Shown: in pieces, positions 2,356 through 64,000 of the stretch | How the letters are laid out: every line of letters begins with the position of its first letter | Position numbering within the stretch: position 1 is the stretch's first letter | Assembly (NCBI GenBank): GCA_016744855.1 | Contig: JADGDO010000004.1 | Span: 35,006-99,005, forward strand | Direction of reading: 5' to 3' | Length of the DNA stretch: 64,000 nucleotides | DNA from: Candidatus Fermentibacteraceae bacterium | GTDB lineage: Bacteria > Fermentibacterota > Fermentibacteria > Fermentibacterales > JCC-6 | Program-made: the position numbers and the translations under genes | The notes under the pieces: generated by a model | What the model saw: only the letters and a program-made list of their open reading frames with translations | What the model was told of the DNA's origin: nothing | The model's database searches: none

Positions 2356-3738
2356 CTAATACATCTTGCCAAAGGTTCTAGGGAAGGGTACAACATCTCG
2401 GATATTGTCCATTCCGGTAAGGTACAAAAGGAGTCTTTCAAAACCGAGACCAAAACCTGCATGAGGTGCTGTTCCCCAGCGTCTTAGCTCCATGTACCAT
2501 CTGTAGGTCTCCATATCAAGACCCTGTTCCAACGCTCTTTTTTCAAGGATAGGAAGTCGGTGTTCCCGCTGGCTGCCACCGACAAGCTCACCCACACCTG
2601 GGGCGAGAAGATCGCAGGCACGCACGGTTTTGCCGTCATCGTTCACATACATGTAGAAGGGCTTCATGGATGCTGGGTAATCAATCACAAAGACAGGTTT
2701 GCCAAAGTGTTCTTCTGCAAGGAATCTTTCGTGTTCAGTTGCAAGATCATCTCCCCATTCAGGAAGATTTTCAAACTTTTTCCCAGAAGATCTAATGATT
2801 TCAATTGCCTCTGTGTATGTAATTCTACCGAAATCGTTTTCAAGGAGAGACTTATATCTTTCTTTCAGCCCCTTCTCAAAAAATCTTGAAAAGAATTCTA
2901 TGTCCTCACTGCACTTCTCCATGAGATAAGATGCTGTGAATTTAACGAATTTTTCTATAAGGTTGAGGTTGTCCTCCAAGTCGAAGAACGCCATCTCGGG
3001 CTCCAGCATCCAGAATTCGGCACCATGAATGCGGGTATCCGAGGGATCTGCACGAAAGGTGGGACCAAAGGTGTATACCTTTCCAAGTGACAGGGCAAAC
3101 GGCTCTGCTTCGAGCTGGCCACTAACAGTAAGGAAGGCTTTCTTCTTGAAATAGTCTTTTTCGTAGTCGACCGCTCCATCCTTCAGAGGAACCATATCCA
3201 GTGGAAGAGTAGTTAACTGGAATGTTTCACCGGCACCTTCGCAATCGCTTTCGGTAATGAAGGGTGTGTGGACATTGAAGAAACCGTTTTCGTCAAAGAA
3301 TCTGTGTATTGCCATGGAAATGTGGTGACTCATACGGAATGCACTGCTGAAAGTGTTGGTTCTGGAGCGAAGGTGCGGCATTGTTCTGAGGAACTCGAGG
3401 GAATGCCTCTTCTTCTGAAGAGGGTAATCTTCATCCACAGGACCTACAATCTCCAGCTCCACAGCGGAGATTTCTACAGATTGTTCTTTACCCTGACTTG
3501 CAACAACCAATCCCTTAACACGGATACATGCCCCAGTAAGTAAACCGGAGAGTTCTTTGTCTGAGAATAGTTCTCTGTCGAAAACAGCTTGGAGATTATT
3601 TATTGTCGATCCATCGTTCAAGGATGCAAAAGCAACACTTTTGCCTGTTCTAGCAGTTTTCACCCAGCTGTAAACCGTTACGGTCTCTCCGGTATGAACT
3701 CCACCAAGAATTGAATCAATGGTGTTTCGACGGATCAT
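2356..3738 (-). CDS. asnS: Asparaginyl-tRNA synthetase
   Basis: 460 aa class II aaRS; OB-fold N-terminus (VYSWVKTARTGKSVAFASLNDGS), FITESDCEGAGETF, AHAGFGLGFERLLLYLTGMDNIRDVVPFPR motif 3. Confidence 0.95.
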   Translation of the reverse strand: MIRRNTIDSILGGVHTGETVTVYSWVKTARTGKSVAFASLNDGSTINNLQAVFDRELFSDKELSGLLTGACIRVKGLVVASQGKEQSVEISAVELEIVGPVDEDYPLQKKRHSLEFLRTMPHLRSRTNTFSSAFRMSHHISMAIHRFFDENGFFNVHTPFITESDCEGAGETFQLTTLPLDMVPLKDGAVDYEKDYFKKKAFLTVSGQLEAEPFALSLGKVYTFGPTFRADPSDTRIHGAEFWMLEPEMAFFDLEDNLNLIEKFVKFTASYLMEKCSEDIEFFSRFFEKGLKERYKSLLENDFGRITYTEAIEIIRSSGKKFENLPEWGDDLATEHERFLAEEHFGKPVFVIDYPASMKPFYMYVNDDGKTVRACDLLAPGVGELVGGSQREHRLPILEKRALEQGLDMETYRWYMELRRWGTAPHAGFGLGFERLLLYLTGMDNIRDVVPFPRTFGKMY

Positions 3739-55291: not shown

Positions 55292-56383
55292 TTGATGATA
55301 ATTTTGAATTTTCTGCTTGCTTCTCTAATTTCCGTTACCGGTTTTTCACCGGAATTTCAACCACCATCATGTGGTATTGGTGCTGAGACTGCCGGTGGAG
55401 GCGTCAGGGCTTTTTCAATGGGTGGTGTAAGCGCAGGGCTTGCAGATTCGAATATGGTTTCAGGATCTAATCCTGCAGCTTCAGCATGGGCAGTTAATAC
55501 CGGACTTGCCTGGGGTACAAAAGTTAGAGAGACAAATGACCTCAGTTGGTCAGGTGCATCTTCTTTCCCAGAGGTTTCAATGGTATTTCCGCTTCCTCTT
55601 GATCTGCAATTCTCTGCTCTGATGAGTAGTCGTTCCAGAATCAATATAGAGGATACTATCACTTTCATTGGTGGATCAGGAACAGAGAAGTGGACCGGTA
55701 GTTCCGGTGAATCTTATCTTGGTTTTACTTCAAGGGTCTCTGAACATCTAGCTTTCTCTCTCGGGGGAAAGTGTTTTTTCGGGTCCGCAATGGGTGATGC
55801 AGTTACAGCTCCCACCATTCCAGGTCAGGAGATCTCCCTTGGTAGATCCTTCAGAGATGATCTTTCGTTTTCGCCATCCTGGGGTCCTGTGTTCGGGGCA
55901 TTTATGAATACCCGGTATTTTTCCGCAGGCATGTCTATTGTAACTGACAGATCCGGCGATCTGGATATTAGTCGCGAATACCTGGATGACACTTCCGCAG
56001 AAACTACTGTCAGATATTCTGTACCTGGTGAATTCTCAGCTGGAGTATCGTCACAGGTTCACCCAAGGATTCTTGTGGGCTTAGACTTTTTCGCCAGAAA
56101 AGCTCTTACTATTCTTGAGCAAACTACCGACGAGGGTAGTTATTTAGCCTCAGGTATCGAGATAAATCCCGGTTACGGATTCCGACTTAGGGGCGGTTTC
56201 AGAGCAATGGATGGTTTATGGAGAGATGGTGCATCCAGATACTCTGGTGGTATTGGTTATCTTATCTCGGGTGGCAGGGCTTCTTTTGATATAGGGGCAA
56301 GCTATGAGACCTGGGGTGTGGACGAATCCGAAACAGTCGTTTTCGCTTCAATACGGACGTCAGAGAATTGGCTGGGACGGTAG
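55292..56383 (+). CDS. Putative outer-membrane beta-barrel protein (PorV/FadL-like)
   Basis: 363 aa; signal peptide; GGGVRAFSMGGVSAGLADSNMVSGSNPAASAW and alternating amphipathic strands to the C-terminus. Confidence 0.6.
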   Translation: MMIILNFLLASLISVTGFSPEFQPPSCGIGAETAGGGVRAFSMGGVSAGLADSNMVSGSNPAASAWAVNTGLAWGTKVRETNDLSWSGASSFPEVSMVFPLPLDLQFSALMSSRSRINIEDTITFIGGSGTEKWTGSSGESYLGFTSRVSEHLAFSLGGKCFFGSAMGDAVTAPTIPGQEISLGRSFRDDLSFSPSWGPVFGAFMNTRYFSAGMSIVTDRSGDLDISREYLDDTSAETTVRYSVPGEFSAGVSSQVHPRILVGLDFFARKALTILEQTTDEGSYLASGIEINPGYGFRLRGGFRAMDGLWRDGASRYSGGIGYLISGGRASFDIGASYETWGVDESETVVFASIRTSENWLGR

Positions 56384-57075
56384 TTGTAGTACCTGCCAGG
56401 ATGGAGTCTACCCGGCTTCCGGGTAAACCTCTGGCGGACATCTGCGGTCGACCCATGATTCTCAGGGTTCTTGACGGTGCTGCCGGAGCAAACCCTGATC
56501 GTCTCGTTGTTGCAACAGATTCAGAAGAAATAAAAGCGGTAGTTGCTGCTGCCGGATATGAGGCAGTTATCACCGGTCCCTGCGAAAGCGGTACCCAGCG
56601 AGTTTACAAGGCATGGAAAGCTCTGGGTTGTCCAGGCGAACGAATTATTAATCTCCAGGGGGATGAACCGTTCGTGCAGCCGGGCTGGGTCGAAGCGCTC
56701 ACCAGCCAGGAAATGTTGCCCGAATCGGTCGTAACTCTGGCTAAGAAAGTTCCAGCTGACGTTGGAGAAGATCCATCTGTTGTGAAAGTTGTTACGAATT
56801 CCACAGGGGAAGCTCTTTATTTTTCGAGAAGTATTATTCCCTGGGGAGCTTCTTTTATTCTACACCATCTAGGAGTATACTCTTTTACTCCTGAAAGCCT
56901 TTCGCTTTGTGCCTGTTCTCCCCCCGGAAAGCTATCTCTTCAGGAAAAGCTGGAGCAGCTTGGATGGATGGAGAATGGGATTAAAATCAAGGTTATACCA
57001 GGTGATTGGCACGCAATGGGTGTTGACACACAAGAGGATCTGGAGGAGGCTCGGAAATGGTTCAGAAATTATTAG
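56368..57075 (+). CDS. kdsB: 3-deoxy-manno-octulosonate cytidylyltransferase
   Basis: TTG start; VVVPARMESTRLPGKPLADICGRPMI, NLQGDEPFVQPGW, FSRSIIPW, LGVYSFTPESL. Confidence 0.95.
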   Translation: MAGTVVVVPARMESTRLPGKPLADICGRPMILRVLDGAAGANPDRLVVATDSEEIKAVVAAAGYEAVITGPCESGTQRVYKAWKALGCPGERIINLQGDEPFVQPGWVEALTSQEMLPESVVTLAKKVPADVGEDPSVVKVVTNSTGEALYFSRSIIPWGASFILHHLGVYSFTPESLSLCACSPPGKLSLQEKLEQLGWMENGIKIKVIPGDWHAMGVDTQEDLEEARKWFRNY

Positions 57076-57860
57076 ATTCATCCCTTCCCTTATTTATTCT
57101 GGGACCCTGCGGAATTGAATCCGAAGAACTTGTTTTTACGACTGCAAAATTTGTTGATACCCTTAGAAAAAAGTATGAGGGCAGGGCTGTTTTTGTTTTC
57201 AAAAGCTCTTTCCTCAAGGACAATAGAACATCTGAAGGATCCTGGTCTGGCCCTGGAATTGAAGAGGGGCTTAGAATCCTTGAAGAAGCGGGAAATTCTT
57301 TCCAGCTTCCCTTGATTACTGATATTCACGTTGCTGCTCATGCTGCACCCGTGGCAGAGATTTGTGATATGCTTCAAATACCTGCTTTCCTCTGCCGACA
57401 GACTTCTTTACTGGAGGCAGCAGGGCAGACAGGCATTCCTGTGAATGTAAAAAAAGGGCAATTCATGGCTCCTGAGAACATGAAGGGAGCTGTCGACAAG
57501 CTTATTGCATCCGGCTGTCCTTCCACTTTCCTTACTGAACGGGGCAGTTTTTTCGGTTATGGAGACCTTGTTGTAGACATGCGGTCGCTGACAGTAATGA
57601 AAGGACTCTGCGACGGAGTCATCATGGACCTCACTCATTCACTTCAGAAGCCCGGAGCTGCAGGTAAATTTACTGGCGGGGATAGAACATTTGCCCTCCA
57701 GATGGCTCGAGCGGCAGCAGCATGGGGAATCAAAGGTATGTTTATTGAAGCCCATCCCAAACCGGAAGAGGCTTTAAGCGACAGCGCTGTCATGCTTGAT
57801 TTTTGTGAGGCGGAAGCAGTACTCGAAGCAGCTCTAAATCACTGGGAAGGGAGTTCCTGA
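57057..57860 (+). CDS. kdsA: 2-dehydro-3-deoxyphosphooctonate aldolase
   Basis: 267 aa; FILGPCGIES, FKSSFLKDNRTSEGSWSGPGIEEGLRIL, LITDIHVAAHA, QIPAFLCRQTSLLEAAGQTG. Confidence 0.95.
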   Translation: MVQKLLDSSLPLFILGPCGIESEELVFTTAKFVDTLRKKYEGRAVFVFKSSFLKDNRTSEGSWSGPGIEEGLRILEEAGNSFQLPLITDIHVAAHAAPVAEICDMLQIPAFLCRQTSLLEAAGQTGIPVNVKKGQFMAPENMKGAVDKLIASGCPSTFLTERGSFFGYGDLVVDMRSLTVMKGLCDGVIMDLTHSLQKPGAAGKFTGGDRTFALQMARAAAAWGIKGMFIEAHPKPEEALSDSAVMLDFCEAEAVLEAALNHWEGSS

Positions 57861-58336
57861 TGAAATTCACTGATATCAGACTTTTAGCTGTTGATGTAGA
57901 TGGTACTTTAACTGATGGAAAACTCTTTTACGGTCCAAATGGTGTTTCACAGGCTTTTAATTCCAAAGATGGTGCTGGAATAATGAAACTTATTGAAAAA
58001 GGGGTTGATGTTGCCTTCGTATCTTTCCGCGACTTCAGCTGCACAAGAAGAAGAGCTTCTGATCTGGGAGTGAAACTTCTTTGCCTCGGGAGCCTGGATA
58101 AGGCTGCATCAGTAAAGGGACTTGCCGAACACCTGAATATTCCCCTCTCATCTGTTCTGTTCATGGGCGACGATAGCAAAGATATTCCTGCAATGGAAAT
58201 TGCCGGTAAATCTGCCTGTCCTCGCGACGCATCCGAAGATGTCAGAGATCTCTGTTCGGTTGTAGCAGATTGTGAAGGCGGTTATGGAGCGGTTAGAGAG
58301 ATTGCTGAAATGATCCTGGAGGATTTGAGTGAGTAG
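57860..58336 (+). CDS. kdsC: KdsC-type HAD phosphatase
   Basis: 158 aa; LLAVDVDGTLTDGKLFYGPNG, FMGDDSKDIPAMEIAG, operon position. Confidence 0.92.
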   Translation: MKFTDIRLLAVDVDGTLTDGKLFYGPNGVSQAFNSKDGAGIMKLIEKGVDVAFVSFRDFSCTRRRASDLGVKLLCLGSLDKAASVKGLAEHLNIPLSSVLFMGDDSKDIPAMEIAGKSACPRDASEDVRDLCSVVADCEGGYGAVREIAEMILEDLSE

Positions 58337-59285
58337 CATTTTTGAGGAAGCAGAGCGTGTCTTTGAAATAGAGGTCAAATGGTTGAACTCTATGCTTCCT
58401 TTAAATAGGAGTTCGTTTCCTGCAGCAGTTGAGCTGCTTAATAGATCAAAGGGAAAACTGATTATTTGTGGCATGGGAAAATCAGGTCTTGTAGCCAGAA
58501 AAATCGCTGCAACCATGACCAGTACTGGAACGCCTTCCTACTTTCTTCACCCTGCAGAGGGTATTCACGGCGATGCTGGTATTCTCGCAAGAGGTGATAC
58601 CGCTCTTGTTTTATCTAAAAGTGGCGATACCGCAGAAATTGCAGCACTTCTACCCGTTTTGGGTAGCCTAAACATTCCTGTAGTGGCAATGGTTTCAAAT
58701 GAAAACTCTCTTCTCGGAAGATTTGCCGATGTTGTGCTCAAGCTTCCCGGATTCAAGGAAGCCTGCCCCTATAATCTTGCTCCCACTGCTAGCACAACTG
58801 CCATGATGACCATGGGGGATGCACTGGCTATGGCTATGCTTAAGCTTTCCGGATTTACCCCAGAGGACTTTGCAGAAGTTCACCCCGGAGGATCTCTGGG
58901 AAAAAAACTTCTTATGAGAGTGTCAGACCTTATGACTTCAGAGAATCTACCGCTTCTTTCTCCTGAAAGCCCTCTTACGGCCGCCATTGAGATGATGACG
59001 GAGCATCGTGGTTTGTGCATTGCTACAGACACAGAAAGCCGTCTTGCAGGGATATTTGTCTACGGCGACCTGGGACGACTGATGAGAGACAATATCAGTG
59101 TTTCCGGTCTTTCTCTGAAAGATGTTATGATAAAAAACCCTGCAGTAACGCAGGCTGATGAGCTTCTTGCACTAGCGGTTCAGTCAATGGAGGCCAGGGG
59201 AATAACATCTCTTGTCGTTGTAAATGAAAATTCAATTCCCTTAGGCATTGTTTATCTTCATGATGCACTGGCTCTTGGATTCTGA
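58329..59285 (+). CDS. kdsD: Arabinose-5-phosphate isomerase (SIS plus CBS domains)
   Basis: 318 aa; ICGMGKSGLVARKIAATMTSTGTPSYFLHPAEGIHGDAG, LSKSGDTAEI, HPGGSLGKKLL. Confidence 0.95.
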   Translation: MSSIFEEAERVFEIEVKWLNSMLPLNRSSFPAAVELLNRSKGKLIICGMGKSGLVARKIAATMTSTGTPSYFLHPAEGIHGDAGILARGDTALVLSKSGDTAEIAALLPVLGSLNIPVVAMVSNENSLLGRFADVVLKLPGFKEACPYNLAPTASTTAMMTMGDALAMAMLKLSGFTPEDFAEVHPGGSLGKKLLMRVSDLMTSENLPLLSPESPLTAAIEMMTEHRGLCIATDTESRLAGIFVYGDLGRLMRDNISVSGLSLKDVMIKNPAVTQADELLALAVQSMEARGITSLVVVNENSIPLGIVYLHDALALGF

Positions 59286-59857
59286 TGAATGCCACCGGTA
59301 GAAATCTGTATTTCCCTTATACAGGATTGATTTTTTTGTTTTTCCTGATCGCTTGCGGAGCAGAACCAGAAGACTGGTCTGACGAAGATGGACAGATTCA
59401 GACAGTTGCTGACTTCAGACTAGTTCAAGCAGAGGATGGAATCAGAGATTGGATGCTTTCCGGTGACTCGGCTGTTTACCGGGAAACAGATAGCCTTCTT
59501 TTTATGACAGCGGTCAATATTGTATTCTACGAGAATGATGTTCCAGAAAGTTTTGTGAGAAGTGATACCGGCACTTCCGACATGGTAAATGGAGAAACCA
59601 TTCTCTGGGGAAATGTCCATGCAGAAAACAACTCAGGCAGAACCCTTGAAACCGATCTGCTTAACTGGTCTGATTCTATGGAAACTTTTGATACGGACTG
59701 TCTGGTTACTTTTGTAATCCCGGAAAGCACTGGAACAATAACAACCATTCACGGGAGGGGTGTTATTCTCGATACTGGCCTAAGTGCTGTCGGTGAGGTT
59801 ATTGTTCGAGATTCTTTCACTGCAGTTACTACCGGGGAGTTGCCCTTAGATGATTAA
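59285..59857 (+). CDS. lptC: LPS export periplasmic protein LptC-like
   Basis: 190 aa; lipobox FFLIACGAEPE; position between kdsD and lptA. Confidence 0.8.
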   Translation: MNATGRNLYFPYTGLIFLFFLIACGAEPEDWSDEDGQIQTVADFRLVQAEDGIRDWMLSGDSAVYRETDSLLFMTAVNIVFYENDVPESFVRSDTGTSDMVNGETILWGNVHAENNSGRTLETDLLNWSDSMETFDTDCLVTFVIPESTGTITTIHGRGVILDTGLSAVGEVIVRDSFTAVTTGELPLDD

Positions 59858-60908
59858 ACACTCTGTTTCTATTTGTTTTGTTTTTTTTGTTTGCGCTGTT
59901 TCTTTTGCAGGGGTCTTTACTGTGACTTCTGATAATGCTTCTTCAACTGAACTGGAGAGCGGTGAATCAATTCTGGAATTGTTCGGGAATGTCGTAGTAA
60001 CAGACGATGAAGTAACCGTAACATCTGATTCTGCGACCATTTATCAGGATTCTGAAAGAGCTGAATTTACCGGTAATGTACATGCTGTTGCTGATACCCT
60101 CACTGCAACCGGGTATTTTCTTTCTTATTCCAAAATTACTGGTGTACTTATTCTTTCCGGCAATGCCTCGCTCACTGATGGAGCCTCAACATTAACTGCC
60201 GATCAGGTAGACTGGTTCAGATTCAGAAATATGGCTGCTGCAAAGGGATCTGTTGTTCTTCAGGGAGAGTGGCTTGGAATGGTTCAGGGAGAATATGCAC
60301 TGTACGACAGGGAGAGGCAAAGCCTTTTTGTAACGATTGATCCCGTACTGACCAGGGTTGAGAACTCGGACACTACTATTATCACAGCAGACCGTCTGGA
60401 ATTTTTTGAAGAGGGAGAACGCGCTGAAGCGCAAGGGAATGCTCATGTATCAATGAATTCCGGCGGCATGGAGTCATCCAGTGAATACCTGAGATATTTC
60501 GGAGAAGAAGACCGGATGGAGCTTATCGGTTCTCCTGAAATACTAGCAGAAGAAGGTATTATCAGCGGAGATTGGATGGAAATGTTTTTCAATTCAGGCG
60601 GAGCTGTCAATTTTTTAAGAATTGAGGGTGGGGCTGCAGGAGATCTGGTAGACCTTGAGAGCACCGTGAATTTTACCTCACAAAGGGCTGAATTTGCCTT
60701 TCTTTCCTCTGGAGATGATCTGGACAGCCTCCTTCTTCAGGGTGGGGCTGTTCTTGATGTAGCTGGTGAGGATTCGGTAAGAGTCGAAGTAAATACAATT
60801 AGTGCGGAGGAGATTGTTATCAGATTCCTTTCTGGAGAAGCGGATGAAATCATGGCCCGGGGAGGAGTCCGGGGAACATACAGCTGGAGTGGAGATTTTC
60901 GTGAGTGA
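59850..60908 (+). CDS. lptA: LptA/OstA-like organic solvent tolerance domain protein
   Basis: 352 aa; repeated LELFGNVVVTDDEVTVTSDSATIYQDSERAEFTGNVHAVADTLTATG OstA-type beta-jellyroll motifs. Confidence 0.85.
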   Translation: MIKHSVSICFVFFVCAVSFAGVFTVTSDNASSTELESGESILELFGNVVVTDDEVTVTSDSATIYQDSERAEFTGNVHAVADTLTATGYFLSYSKITGVLILSGNASLTDGASTLTADQVDWFRFRNMAAAKGSVVLQGEWLGMVQGEYALYDRERQSLFVTIDPVLTRVENSDTTIITADRLEFFEEGERAEAQGNAHVSMNSGGMESSSEYLRYFGEEDRMELIGSPEILAEEGIISGDWMEMFFNSGGAVNFLRIEGGAAGDLVDLESTVNFTSQRAEFAFLSSGDDLDSLLLQGGAVLDVAGEDSVRVEVNTISAEEIVIRFLSGEADEIMARGGVRGTYSWSGDFRE

Positions 60909-61644
60909 TCAGAACAAACGAGTCAGGCAGCTGGTAGTTAAAGACCTCGTTAAAACATACAGAAAACGCAAAGTGGTAAACGGTGTTAGTCTGGAAGTGA
61001 AAACCGGAGAGATTGTTGGTTTGCTGGGTCCTAATGGAGCTGGAAAAACAACATCCTTCAATCAGATTGTAGGTTTTATCAGACCGGATTCCGGTAGTGT
61101 TTTTCTTGATGATAACAATATCACAGGACTCCCTATGTACAAGAGAGCGCGCCTAGGTCTCGGCTATCTTCCCCAGGAATCAAGTGTTTTCAGAAAAATG
61201 ACTGTCGAAGATAATTTAATGTGTATCCTTGAAACTATGAAGCTAAGCAAAAAAGAAAGACTCATCAGGCAGGCACGTCTTCTGGAGGAACTCGGAATTA
61301 CCAGATTGGCAAAGCAGAAGGCTTTTACTCTCTCAGGGGGGGAAAGGCGACGGGTTGAAATAGCCCGTGCTCTTGTCACTGAACCTGCATTTTTGCTTCT
61401 CGATGAACCATTTGCAGGGATTGATCCTATTGCAGTCGCAGAAATTCAGGAGATTATCCGCAAACTTGCTGGATTGGGGTTGGGTGTTCTGATTACAGAT
61501 CACAGTGTCAGAGAAACTCTGGCAATAACTGATAGAGCGTATATAATGTATGATGGAAGAGTACTCATTTCCGGATCAGCTGAGGAATTGGCAAATGACC
61601 CGGAAGCAAGAAAAATCTATCTTGGAGAAAGGTTCTCGCTTTAG
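60901..61644 (+). CDS. lptB: LPS export ABC transporter ATP-binding protein
   Basis: GTG 60901; VGLLGPNGAGKTTSFNQIVGFIRPDSG, LSGGERRRVEIARAL, LLDEPFAGIDPIAVAEIQ, YIMYDGRVL. Confidence 0.95.
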   Translation: MSDQNKRVRQLVVKDLVKTYRKRKVVNGVSLEVKTGEIVGLLGPNGAGKTTSFNQIVGFIRPDSGSVFLDDNNITGLPMYKRARLGLGYLPQESSVFRKMTVEDNLMCILETMKLSKKERLIRQARLLEELGITRLAKQKAFTLSGGERRRVEIARALVTEPAFLLLDEPFAGIDPIAVAEIQEIIRKLAGLGLGVLITDHSVRETLAITDRAYIMYDGRVLISGSAEELANDPEARKIYLGERFSL

Positions 61645-61645
61645 C

Positions 61646-63046
61646 ATGCCCGAGCTCAGAACAGAAATAAAACTGTCACAGGTACAGAAACTGGCTATTA
61701 CGCAAAGTCTGCGCCAGCAATTGGAGATCTTGCAGATGCCTTCCTTGGAACTGGATGGCCTTATATCTACTGAGTTATCCGAAAACCCTCTTCTCGAAGA
61801 AAACGAAACTTCTTCCGATAAAATTGAAGAAACTGAATTGTCTCCAGAGGAATCTGAAAGAGACGATACCAAGGAGGAAGACCCGCTTGATATCCTGAAG
61901 GAAATCGATGAAAGTATTGGTACCGCACCGTCCAGTAAATTCCGCGAGGAAGAGCAATGGCGTCCTGAAGCGGCAAACCCGGAGACCCTGAGTGAGTTTC
62001 TTCTCTCACAGCTTGACGGTCTGCAGATGTCCGAAGAACTGGAGAGCGCGGCTATATATGTGATCTATTCTCTCGACAGGAACGGACTTCTTCTGGTACC
62101 TTCAGACCAGCTGCAGATAGGTTGGGATGGTAGGGAGAAAACTCTCAGTGATGCCGTGGCTATCATTCAGACATTCGACCCACCCGGAGTAGCTCAGGAT
62201 TCTGCCAGAAATGTTCTTCTCTTCCAACTCATACGGGAAAACGGTGAAGCTTCAAGAGGTGACCTTGAATTCAAGATAATCAGTCAGTGTTTCAATGAGC
62301 TCGCTGAGAGACGTATTCTTTCTATTGCTTCCACTCTGCTCGTATCTCCTCATGAAGTTGAACTGGCGATAGAGAAGATAAAGAAACTCAATCCTTGGCC
62401 GGGGGCTGAGTTTGCCGGCAGTACCGGTACAACAGTTATCCCTGATGTTATTATTGAGAAGCACGACGATAAATTTATGGTTTTTCTTAATGACAATCGC
62501 TTCCCACACCTTTCGATCAGCGATAGGAATCGCAGGGTACTTGAATCCCCTTCCACAGGAGTGATTGAGAAAGATTATGTGAAGAAGAAGTTTAAAAGAG
62601 CCAGCTGGTTTATTAAAGCAATAAAACAACGACAGGAAACTGTTAAAAAAATATCAAATTTCATTGTTGAGACCCAGTGGGAATTTCTGCTTCACGGTGT
62701 AGAATCACTCAGACCTTTGACACTTCAGGAAGCCGCAAAAGCTCTTGGTTTTAATCAATCGACTATCAGCCGTGCAATCAACGGCAAATACGTGCAGTCT
62801 CCTCAAGGAATTCATGAGATGCGTTATTATTTCAGCAGGGGAAGTGCTGACGCTTCGGTTACAGCGATTTCAGTTAAGGAAGAGATAAAGAGAATTATTG
62901 ACGCTGAAGATGAATCCAAACCCTTCAGCGATGAGAAAATTGCCGACATGCTTAACAACAGCGGAACCACCATTAAAAGAAGAACGGTGGCTAATTACCG
63001 TAAAAAGATGGACATACCTGGCGCTAGAAAAAGAAGGCGCTTCTAA
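61646..63046 (+). CDS. rpoN: RNA polymerase sigma-54 factor
   Basis: ATG 61646; QKLAITQSLRQQLEILQMPSLELDGLISTELSENPLLEEN, RPLTLQEAAKALGFNQSTISRAINGKYVQSPQG, RPON box RRTVANYRKKMDIPGARKRRRF. Confidence 0.97.
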   Translation: MPELRTEIKLSQVQKLAITQSLRQQLEILQMPSLELDGLISTELSENPLLEENETSSDKIEETELSPEESERDDTKEEDPLDILKEIDESIGTAPSSKFREEEQWRPEAANPETLSEFLLSQLDGLQMSEELESAAIYVIYSLDRNGLLLVPSDQLQIGWDGREKTLSDAVAIIQTFDPPGVAQDSARNVLLFQLIRENGEASRGDLEFKIISQCFNELAERRILSIASTLLVSPHEVELAIEKIKKLNPWPGAEFAGSTGTTVIPDVIIEKHDDKFMVFLNDNRFPHLSISDRNRRVLESPSTGVIEKDYVKKKFKRASWFIKAIKQRQETVKKISNFIVETQWEFLLHGVESLRPLTLQEAAKALGFNQSTISRAINGKYVQSPQGIHEMRYYFSRGSADASVTAISVKEEIKRIIDAEDESKPFSDEKIADMLNNSGTTIKRRTVANYRKKMDIPGARKRRRF

Positions 63047-63057
63047 GGGGATTTCGG

Positions 63058-64000
63058 ATGAGTAATGATGTTTTCAAGGGATACAGAGAAGCAACCAGAG
63101 AAATGATGGAAAAATTTGGCATCAGTGTCTGGGACGACATTATTCTTACTGCGGGGCCAAACACTTTTGAAGGGGTCGTTCTTCCTAGAAGTGAAACAGC
63201 TGACGCTAATCATATAGTCATTAAACTGGCTACTGGCTACAATATTGGAATTTTAGCATCCAAGGTTACAGGTGTCAAAATTCTCGGCTCCAAGAATGTT
63301 GTTTTTCAGATACCAGAGCAGGAATTCCCTTTCGATCCATCACATCCGAATGTAAAGCTCTTGGGCACAGGTGGTACAATCGCCAGCAGATTGGATTACA
63401 AAACAGGTGCTGTTATCCCAGCTTTCTCTCCCGGAGAACTCTATGGAGCAGTGCCAGAGCTTGCAGATATATGTAATCTCGAAACAGAGAAGCTGTTCGG
63501 AATATTCAGCGAGGATATGGGCCCCAAAGAGTACATCATCCTAGCAAAAGCAATAGAGAAGGAAATTGAAAAGGGCACCGCCGGAATAATGATCGGCCAC
63601 GGTACTGATACTCTCAGCCACACCGCTGCTGCCCTTACATATATGTGTCAGGACCTGCCGATCCCAGTTGTTCTGGTAGGCAGCCAGAGATCAAGCGATC
63701 GTCCTTCAAGCGATGCTGCTCTAAACCTGATACACGCAGCCAGAACAGCTGCTTTTTTCGATGCTGCAGAGGTTGTTGTGTGCATGTTCGGCCCAACCAG
63801 TGATGACTATGGTCTTTTGCATAGGGGCCCCCAGGTCAGAAAGATGCATTCAAGTTATAGAAGCACTTTCAGAACAATCGGTGACAGACCTCTAGCCATG
63901 GTTGACCGCGATAAATTCACATTTCTGAAGAAAGACTACATCAAGAGAGATCCGACGCGTAAACCCAATATTCGTCCAGTTTTCGATGACAGAGTGGGAA
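63058..64000 (+). CDS. gatD: Glutamyl-tRNA(Gln) amidotransferase subunit D-like (archaeal-type GatD), partial at window end
   Basis: Open from ATG 63058 to window end: DDIILTAGPNTFEGVVLPRSETADANHIVIKLATGYNIGI (GatD-type N-terminal barrel) then asparaginase-fold KLLGTGGTIASRLDYKTGAVIPAFSPGEL, IMIGHGTDTLSHTAAAL, VLVGSQRSSDRPSSDAALNL. Not in ORF track because it is open at the edge. Confidence 0.88.
   Translation, partial: MSNDVFKGYREATREMMEKFGISVWDDIILTAGPNTFEGVVLPRSETADANHIVIKLATGYNIGILASKVTGVKILGSKNVVFQIPEQEFPFDPSHPNVKLLGTGGTIASRLDYKTGAVIPAFSPGELYGAVPELADICNLETEKLFGIFSEDMGPKEYIILAKAIEKEIEKGTAGIMIGHGTDTLSHTAAALTYMCQDLPIPVVLVGSQRSSDRPSSDAALNLIHAARTAAFFDAAEVVVCMFGPTSDDYGLLHRGPQVRKMHSSYRSTFRTIGDRPLAMVDRDKFTFLKKDYIKRDPTRKPNIRPVFDDRVG

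Follow-up and report, generated by a model that had tools for sequence, protein, structure and literature searches.

Genes for a GatDE-type amidotransferase beside GlnRS in a Candidatus Fermentibacteraceae bacterium, on a branch apart from canonical archaeal GatDE

The window, i.e. the whole stretch of 64,000 nucleotides analysed here, ends inside a gatD gene. The reading frame at 63058..63999 (+) is real, starts with ATG and is open at the window end; followed further along its 249-kb contig (C52), it encodes 461 aa (L002:1064-2449). The genes on which the argument rests are the following:

2356..3738, minus strand: asnS (NF003037, 601 bits)
56368..61644, plus strand: kdsB, kdsA, kdsC, kdsD, lptC-like, lptA-like and lptB, read from their translations
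61550..63046, plus strand: rpoN (sigma-54), directly upstream of gatD, read from its translation
63058..64000, plus strand: gatD, codons 1-314 of 461; the whole gene is G000:C52:98063-99448
C19:256539-258191, on another contig than gatD: gatE (TIGR00134, 396 bits; cut-off 319.6)

The spacing between rpoN and gatD is 11 bases, and both the position of gatD after rpoN and the kds/lpt run and the presence of asnS in the window, as put forward in a preliminary description of this DNA, agree with the coordinates. Judged from its kds/lpt lipopolysaccharide genes, the host belongs among the diderm bacteria. Its genome is a 107-contig draft (94.85% complete, 0.53% contamination); relatives with GatE 79-85% identical are GTDB genomes of Candidatus Sabulitectum and Candidatus Fermentibacteraceae, and the GlnRS and GatE hits of genome G060 (locus L112) coincide, down to their contig positions, with those of the same-genus genome G001. 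The host is accordingly closely related to Sabulitectum, a member of Candidatus Fermentibacterota (FCB group, Bacteria). A 164-aa ORF (L002:2446-2940) shares 4 bases with the 3' end of gatD and is perhaps translationally coupled to it; it gave zero matches against the NCBIfam models at E 1e-20, and we take it to resemble adenosine-specific kinases.

Is the product a GatD or a plain L-asparaginase? The former, as the preliminary description had maintained on the strength of a GatD-style N-terminal domain joined to an asparaginase-like one. Residues 24-75 of the window ORF match PF18195 GatD_N (46.8 bits, cut-off 25.7) and residues 98-292 match PF00710 Asparaginase (177 bits), and even this truncated ORF exceeds the cut-off of the NCBIfam GatD equivalog NF003217, on which the full-length protein scores 476 bits (cut-off 310), with 473 bits on TIGR02153 (cut-off 324). 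The top solved-structure matches are the GatD chains of 1ZQ1 (E=7e-113) and 2D6F (E=4e-106), with plain asparaginase structures far behind (best E=4e-36), and the active-site residues are retained, namely Thr in GTGGTIAS, Thr-Asp in HGTDTL and Lys in VRKMH. The equivalog scores and the ranking of structure matches rule out a plain asparaginase. With type I L-asparaginase (TIGR00519) the protein shares its catalytic domain (345 bits), but it adds the GatD_N domain and reaches the GatD equivalog scores. A separate asparaginase-like gene lies elsewhere in the genome (G000:C14:30279-31286).

The partner gene gatE, for which a search had been suggested, is indeed encoded by the host, on contig C19 and over the TIGR00134 cut-off. 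On NF003107, the protein falls slightly under the cut-off (443.5 against 456 bits) because its C-terminal end is missing. Its best solved-structure matches are both GatE structures, and an AlphaFold model of a GatE from the same genus (pLDDT 81.8, pTM 0.81) finds the GatE chains of 1ZQ1 and 2D6F first (E 6e-44 and 1e-42) and GatB after them; E13, H15, E157, E158, E184 and R221 (Mth numbering) are invariant across all aligned GatE and GatB rows. What sets the host lineage apart is the tail: in all four of its rows (the host's own, one from the same genus, one from G016 and one from a further Fermentibacteria MAG) GatE ends at about model position 550-556 of 622 and lacks the last ~60 residues, whereas the tail is present, making the proteins 56-66 residues longer, in 52/52 other bacterial-type and 23/23 canonical rows. 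The insertion and helical domains are retained. No in-frame or neighbouring remnant of the tail occurs at the host locus, where the next ORF is histidine kinase-like. The missing end would be part of a tail that, we infer, binds the tRNA elbow; archaeal GatDE touches the D-loop of tRNA(Gln) (PMC9499178), and with this end lost, substrate recognition is probably altered.

Both genes are nonetheless under strong purifying selection, with pN of 0.10-0.13 and pS of 0.75-0.80 for gatE within the genus, and 0.08 and 0.87, respectively, for gatD (pS near-saturated in both). They are unlinked in the host and adjacent in most other bacteria carrying GatDE; the host gatE adjoins a ptsI-hprK-hpf run (hpf and ptsI read from sequence). 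An hprK neighbourhood is common to host-lineage gatE and the full-length gatE of other Fermentibacterota, which hints at kinship; vertical kinship of the two is rejected by the tree (p=3e-6), although the long branch of host-lineage GatE (length 0.89) may mislead here.

Which other routes to Gln-tRNA(Gln) and Asn-tRNA(Asn) does the host possess? A GatE/GatB search that detects GatB in control bacteria gave no second match in the host genome, and a GatA search with positive controls gave zero matches. The earlier idea that GatDE together with asnS lets the cell drop GatCAB thus stands in so far as neither GatA nor GatB is found there, but the explanation lies elsewhere, because GlnRS and AsnRS provide direct routes to Gln and Asn. 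The genome encodes exactly two PF00749 synthetases, a bacterial GluRS (L004, 478 bits) and a full-length GlnRS (L005, 734 bits). At the position of T. thermophilus R358, which we take to be the residue rejecting tRNA(Gln), this GluRS has Arg, and on this one residue the host's single GluRS is predicted to be discriminating. A look at glnS and at the type of gltX, likewise suggested beforehand, therefore speaks against the proposal that GatDE supplies Gln-tRNA(Gln) in place of the direct route: instead of the non-discriminating GluRS and missing GlnRS that mark the indirect pathway, there is a full GlnRS and, by sequence prediction, a GluRS with Arg at the R358 site. With GlnRS present, GatDE is, on present knowledge, not needed for Gln-tRNA(Gln).

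On the asparagine side, the genome encodes AsnB (L107), and the sole AspRS found in it (L110:1480-2823; G000:C10) is of archaeal type. Its nearest relative is AspRS2 of T. thermophilus (376 bits), a non-discriminating enzyme, and it passes the NF003483 cut-off ('aspartate--tRNA(Asn) ligase'). Pro takes the place of T. kodakarensis K85, presumably a sign of a non-discriminating enzyme, and the W26 site has Gln, matching neither type. Both tRNA(Gln) genes (anticodons TTG and CTG) have U1-A72 and G73, and tRNA(Asn) has G1-C72.

How widespread is this arrangement? Of 42 genomes of the host order, 33 have GatD over cut-off, 35 a GatE match, 37 GlnRS over cut-off and none GatB. A GTDB scan with the GatE alignment returned at least 585 confirmed stretches encoding GatE relatives, and the best 80 of these loci, on which the phylum survey is based, come from about 20 bacterial phyla and two archaeal MAGs: Fermentibacterota, Myxococcota, KSB1, Calditrichota, Coatesbacteria, Marinimicrobia, Ignavibacteria, Gemmatimonadota, Krumholzibacteriota, WOR-3, Planctomycetota, Eisenbacteria, Riflebacteria, Zixibacteria, Latescibacteria, Aminicenantes, Acidobacteriota, Cloacimonadota, Caldisericia and others. 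Fifty genomes with bacterial-type GatE, drawn from the best matches rather than at random, fall into four groups: GlnRS alone in 27, GlnRS together with GatB in 10, GatB alone in 10 and neither in 3 (partial GlnRS in G074, G077 and G100 scored as present, a 173-aa GlnRS-like fragment in G107 as absent). GatB is therefore kept in 10/13 GlnRS-less genomes and absent from 27/37 GlnRS-bearing ones (Fisher p=0.003, kinship ignored). With GatB retained by most genomes that lack GlnRS, GatDE looks accessory in the surveyed bacterial carriers. This retention argues against GatDE as the sole Gln route, although GatCAB may serve Asn in these genomes, and gives no support to the idea that GatDE has taken over the Gln task from GatCAB.

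The residue at the R358 site of GluRS differs among these genomes. Arg is found in nearly all aligned primary GluRS of GlnRS-bearing genomes without GatB (the exception being G065, with Lys); the second GluRS copy shows His in G067 and Lys in G090, and GlnRS-less genomes have K, G, N and E besides R. Three genomes, G067, G086 and G090 (L267, L268, L289, L290, L275, L276), combine GlnRS and GatDE with a pair of GluRS, one member of the pair having a residue other than Arg (His, Asn and Lys, respectively); this copy is possibly a GluRS2 dedicated to tRNA(Gln).

The only recurrent functional neighbour of gatE/gatD is glutamine synthetase, at 7 of the best 80 loci (two in Krumholzibacteriota, one each in Planctomycetota, Latescibacteria and Fermentibacterota, and two in archaeal MAGs), which ties GatDE to glutamine supply. 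At six of them, in several phyla including archaea, a type I glnA adjoins on the same strand; at the seventh (Planctomycetota) the neighbour is a distant glutamine synthetase homologue. One archaeal locus (L308:137-6225) aligns four amide-forming genes in a row: gatD, gatE, glnA and asnA, the last an archaeal AsnRS-like asparagine synthetase A. GlnRS over cut-off occurs in two MAGs that are titled as archaeal and have bacterial-type GatDE (G064, L306:8326-10011, 732 bits; G080:C136:3331-4902, 685 bits), which may stem from mis-binning; an archaeal GluRS (501 bits) is encoded by G064 as well, and an RNA 3'-cyclase gene (TIGR03399, 385 bits) adjoins its GlnRS gene.

In a GatE tree rooted on GatB, the canonical archaeal clade, including M. 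thermautotrophicus and P. abyssi, is separated (support 100/98) from a branch that unites all bacterial-type rows with eight archaeal ones (98/95), and the GatD tree shows the same split (support 100). The archaeal sampling covers one phylum and the two solved structures. In neither tree does the host group with canonical archaeal GatDE, and on this sequence evidence the GatDE of the host belongs to a branch apart from it. Fourteen alignment columns distinguish the two GatE types; at Mth positions 121 and 127, bacterial-type GatE and GatB have Tyr and Pro, canonical GatE Val and Thr. Horizontal transfer or a deep-branching lineage, the two origins initially considered, understates this picture, as the same GatDE type occurs across many bacterial phyla on a branch of its own; the GatE data do not reject a simple division into archaeal and bacterial sequences (p=0.09), so that any transfer may have run either way. 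Another bacterium, G047 (L021, L026), carries canonical archaeal-type GatDE on a long branch, a second, separate occurrence. The archaeal genomes G128 (C102, C30) and G137 (C58, C12) each carry canonical and bacterial-type GatE (572/445 and 487/461 bits).

What, then, does the enzyme do? The genes gatD and gatE, their catalytic residues, fold and purifying selection, the lack of GatA and GatB matches in the host genome and the presence of GlnRS, AsnRS and AsnB are direct observations. The reading that we favour, with about even confidence, is that of an active GatDE-type tRNA-dependent amidotransferase from a widespread, undescribed and mainly bacterial subfamily, working in an accessory role beside GlnRS. 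GatD would hydrolyse glutamine (or asparagine) and pass the ammonia to GatE, which would use ATP to activate, on a mischarged tRNA, the side-chain carboxylate of Glu or Asp and then amidate it; ammonia channelling and ATP-dependent amidation are expected because of family membership and the conserved residues. The first candidate substrate would be Glu-tRNA(Gln) arising from side reactions, as a clean-up or as a back-up under nitrogen stress, and the second Asp-tRNA(Asn) that the archaeal-type AspRS would form. We favour the order clean-up or back-up on Glu-tRNA(Gln), then Asp-tRNA(Asn), then a main Gln route or a substrate other than tRNA. Against an active amidotransferase stand the ~60 missing C-terminal residues of GatE and the unlinked state of gatD and gatE in the host. 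Moreover, no enzyme making Glu-tRNA(Gln) is visible, the one GluRS having Arg at the R358 site, so that the classical substrate may hardly exist.

Could GatDE instead be the main maker of Gln-tRNA(Gln), fed by a non-discriminating GluRS as in archaea, with GlnRS secondary? Conservation of GatD and GatE under selection and the failure to find GatCAB by the GatA and GatB searches would fit, but this is improbable in view of full-length GlnRS in 37/42 genomes of the host order, the Arg of GluRS, the truncated GatE tail and tRNA(Gln) genes that both have U1-A72 and G73 rather than the archaeal A1-U72 (PMC9499178). Amidation of Asp-tRNA(Asn) in parallel to AsnRS, in the way of GatCAB in Thermus, Deinococcus and Bdellovibrio, is rather unlikely. 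In its favour, the sole AspRS found is of the archaeal type, nearest to AspRS2, over the NF003483 cut-off and with the presumed non-discriminating Pro; bacterial-type GatE has the loop Tyr and Pro of GatB, which is able to use both tRNAs. GatCAB alongside GlnRS and AsnRS is, moreover, already known (PMC4206432). However, the W26 site of AspRS matches neither type, tRNA(Asn) has G1-C72, archaeal GatDE serves Glu-tRNA(Gln) (PMC9499178), and AsnB gives Asn synthesis no reason to keep GatDE, which also weakens asparagine prototrophy as an explanation for its retention.

A lineage that has left tRNA altogether, amidating some other carboxylate (a small molecule, a peptide or a cell-wall part), would account for the truncated tail domain and the long GatE branch of the host lineage, and the tRNA role might be dispensable given GlnRS; it is improbable as well, because the remaining bacterial-type GatE rows have a full tail, the host-lineage GatE retains its insertion and helical domains, and the recurrent neighbour is glnA rather than a new pathway. 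That archaeal genes were mis-binned into a bacterial MAG might be suspected of a 107-contig draft, but is refuted for practical purposes: 11 bases separate gatD from the preceding rpoN on a contig of 249 kb, the sister genomes give a matching picture, the same type is carried by MAGs whose titles read chromosome or complete (CP054675, Ignavibacteria; CP070758, Gemmatimonadota; CP070718, Phycisphaerales), and both trees separate the host from canonical archaeal sequences.

The GatDE enzyme family itself is already known, and the sequences are public, automatic annotation likely naming them GatD and GatE. What appears new is the bacterial-type subfamily, how widely it is spread, that it occurs together with GlnRS, and that its GatE can lack the tail; a literature search, to which subscription papers and preprints were out of reach, found no description of bacterial GatDE, and papers on the phylum itself yielded nothing about the enzyme. 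A review describes GatDE as archaea-only (PMC9499178) and states that GlnRS is present in no archaeon; the bacterial genomes contradict the former statement, and two archaeal MAGs with GlnRS stand against the latter. The distribution of GatDE underlies arguments about LUCA and about a co-evolution of GatDE and tRNA that excluded GlnRS from archaea, and its position beside GlnRS in most surveyed carriers makes its actual role a testable question. If an accessory GatDE is real, bacteria would have two parallel routes to Gln-tRNA(Gln), via GlnRS and GatDE, or would amidate Asp-tRNA(Asn) by GatDE. To such a second subfamily, doing one or the other and, in the tail-less Fermentibacterota form, recognising tRNA in a new manner, we would give slightly less than an even chance.

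Two known systems invite comparison with accessory GatDE. With archaeal GatDE (2D6F from M. thermautotrophicus, 1ZQ1 from P. abyssi), the Glu-tRNA(Gln) enzyme that recognises the archaeal A1-U72 of tRNA(Gln) (PMC9499178), the host type shares the two subunits, domain order and fold, as well as the active site of GatD and the metal and phosphate residues of GatE. It differs in forming a separate branch in both trees, in its GatE loop (RKQYLDGSIPTGFQRT in the bacterial type versus canonical RK-VIDGSNT-GFQRT), in being housed by bacteria, mostly with GlnRS, and, in the host, in facing bacterial U1-A72 tRNA(Gln) with a GatE of truncated tail. GatCAB of Thermus, Deinococcus and Bdellovibrio, which coexists with AsnRS and GlnRS (PMC4206432), is likewise a tRNA amidotransferase retained despite both direct synthetases, and its GatB is homologous to GatE, the loop Tyr and Pro being common to GatB and the bacterial type. 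By contrast, the host genome lacks GatA and GatB matches and has AsnB, and its glutaminase is GatD, of the asparaginase type, where GatCAB employs GatA, of the amidase type.
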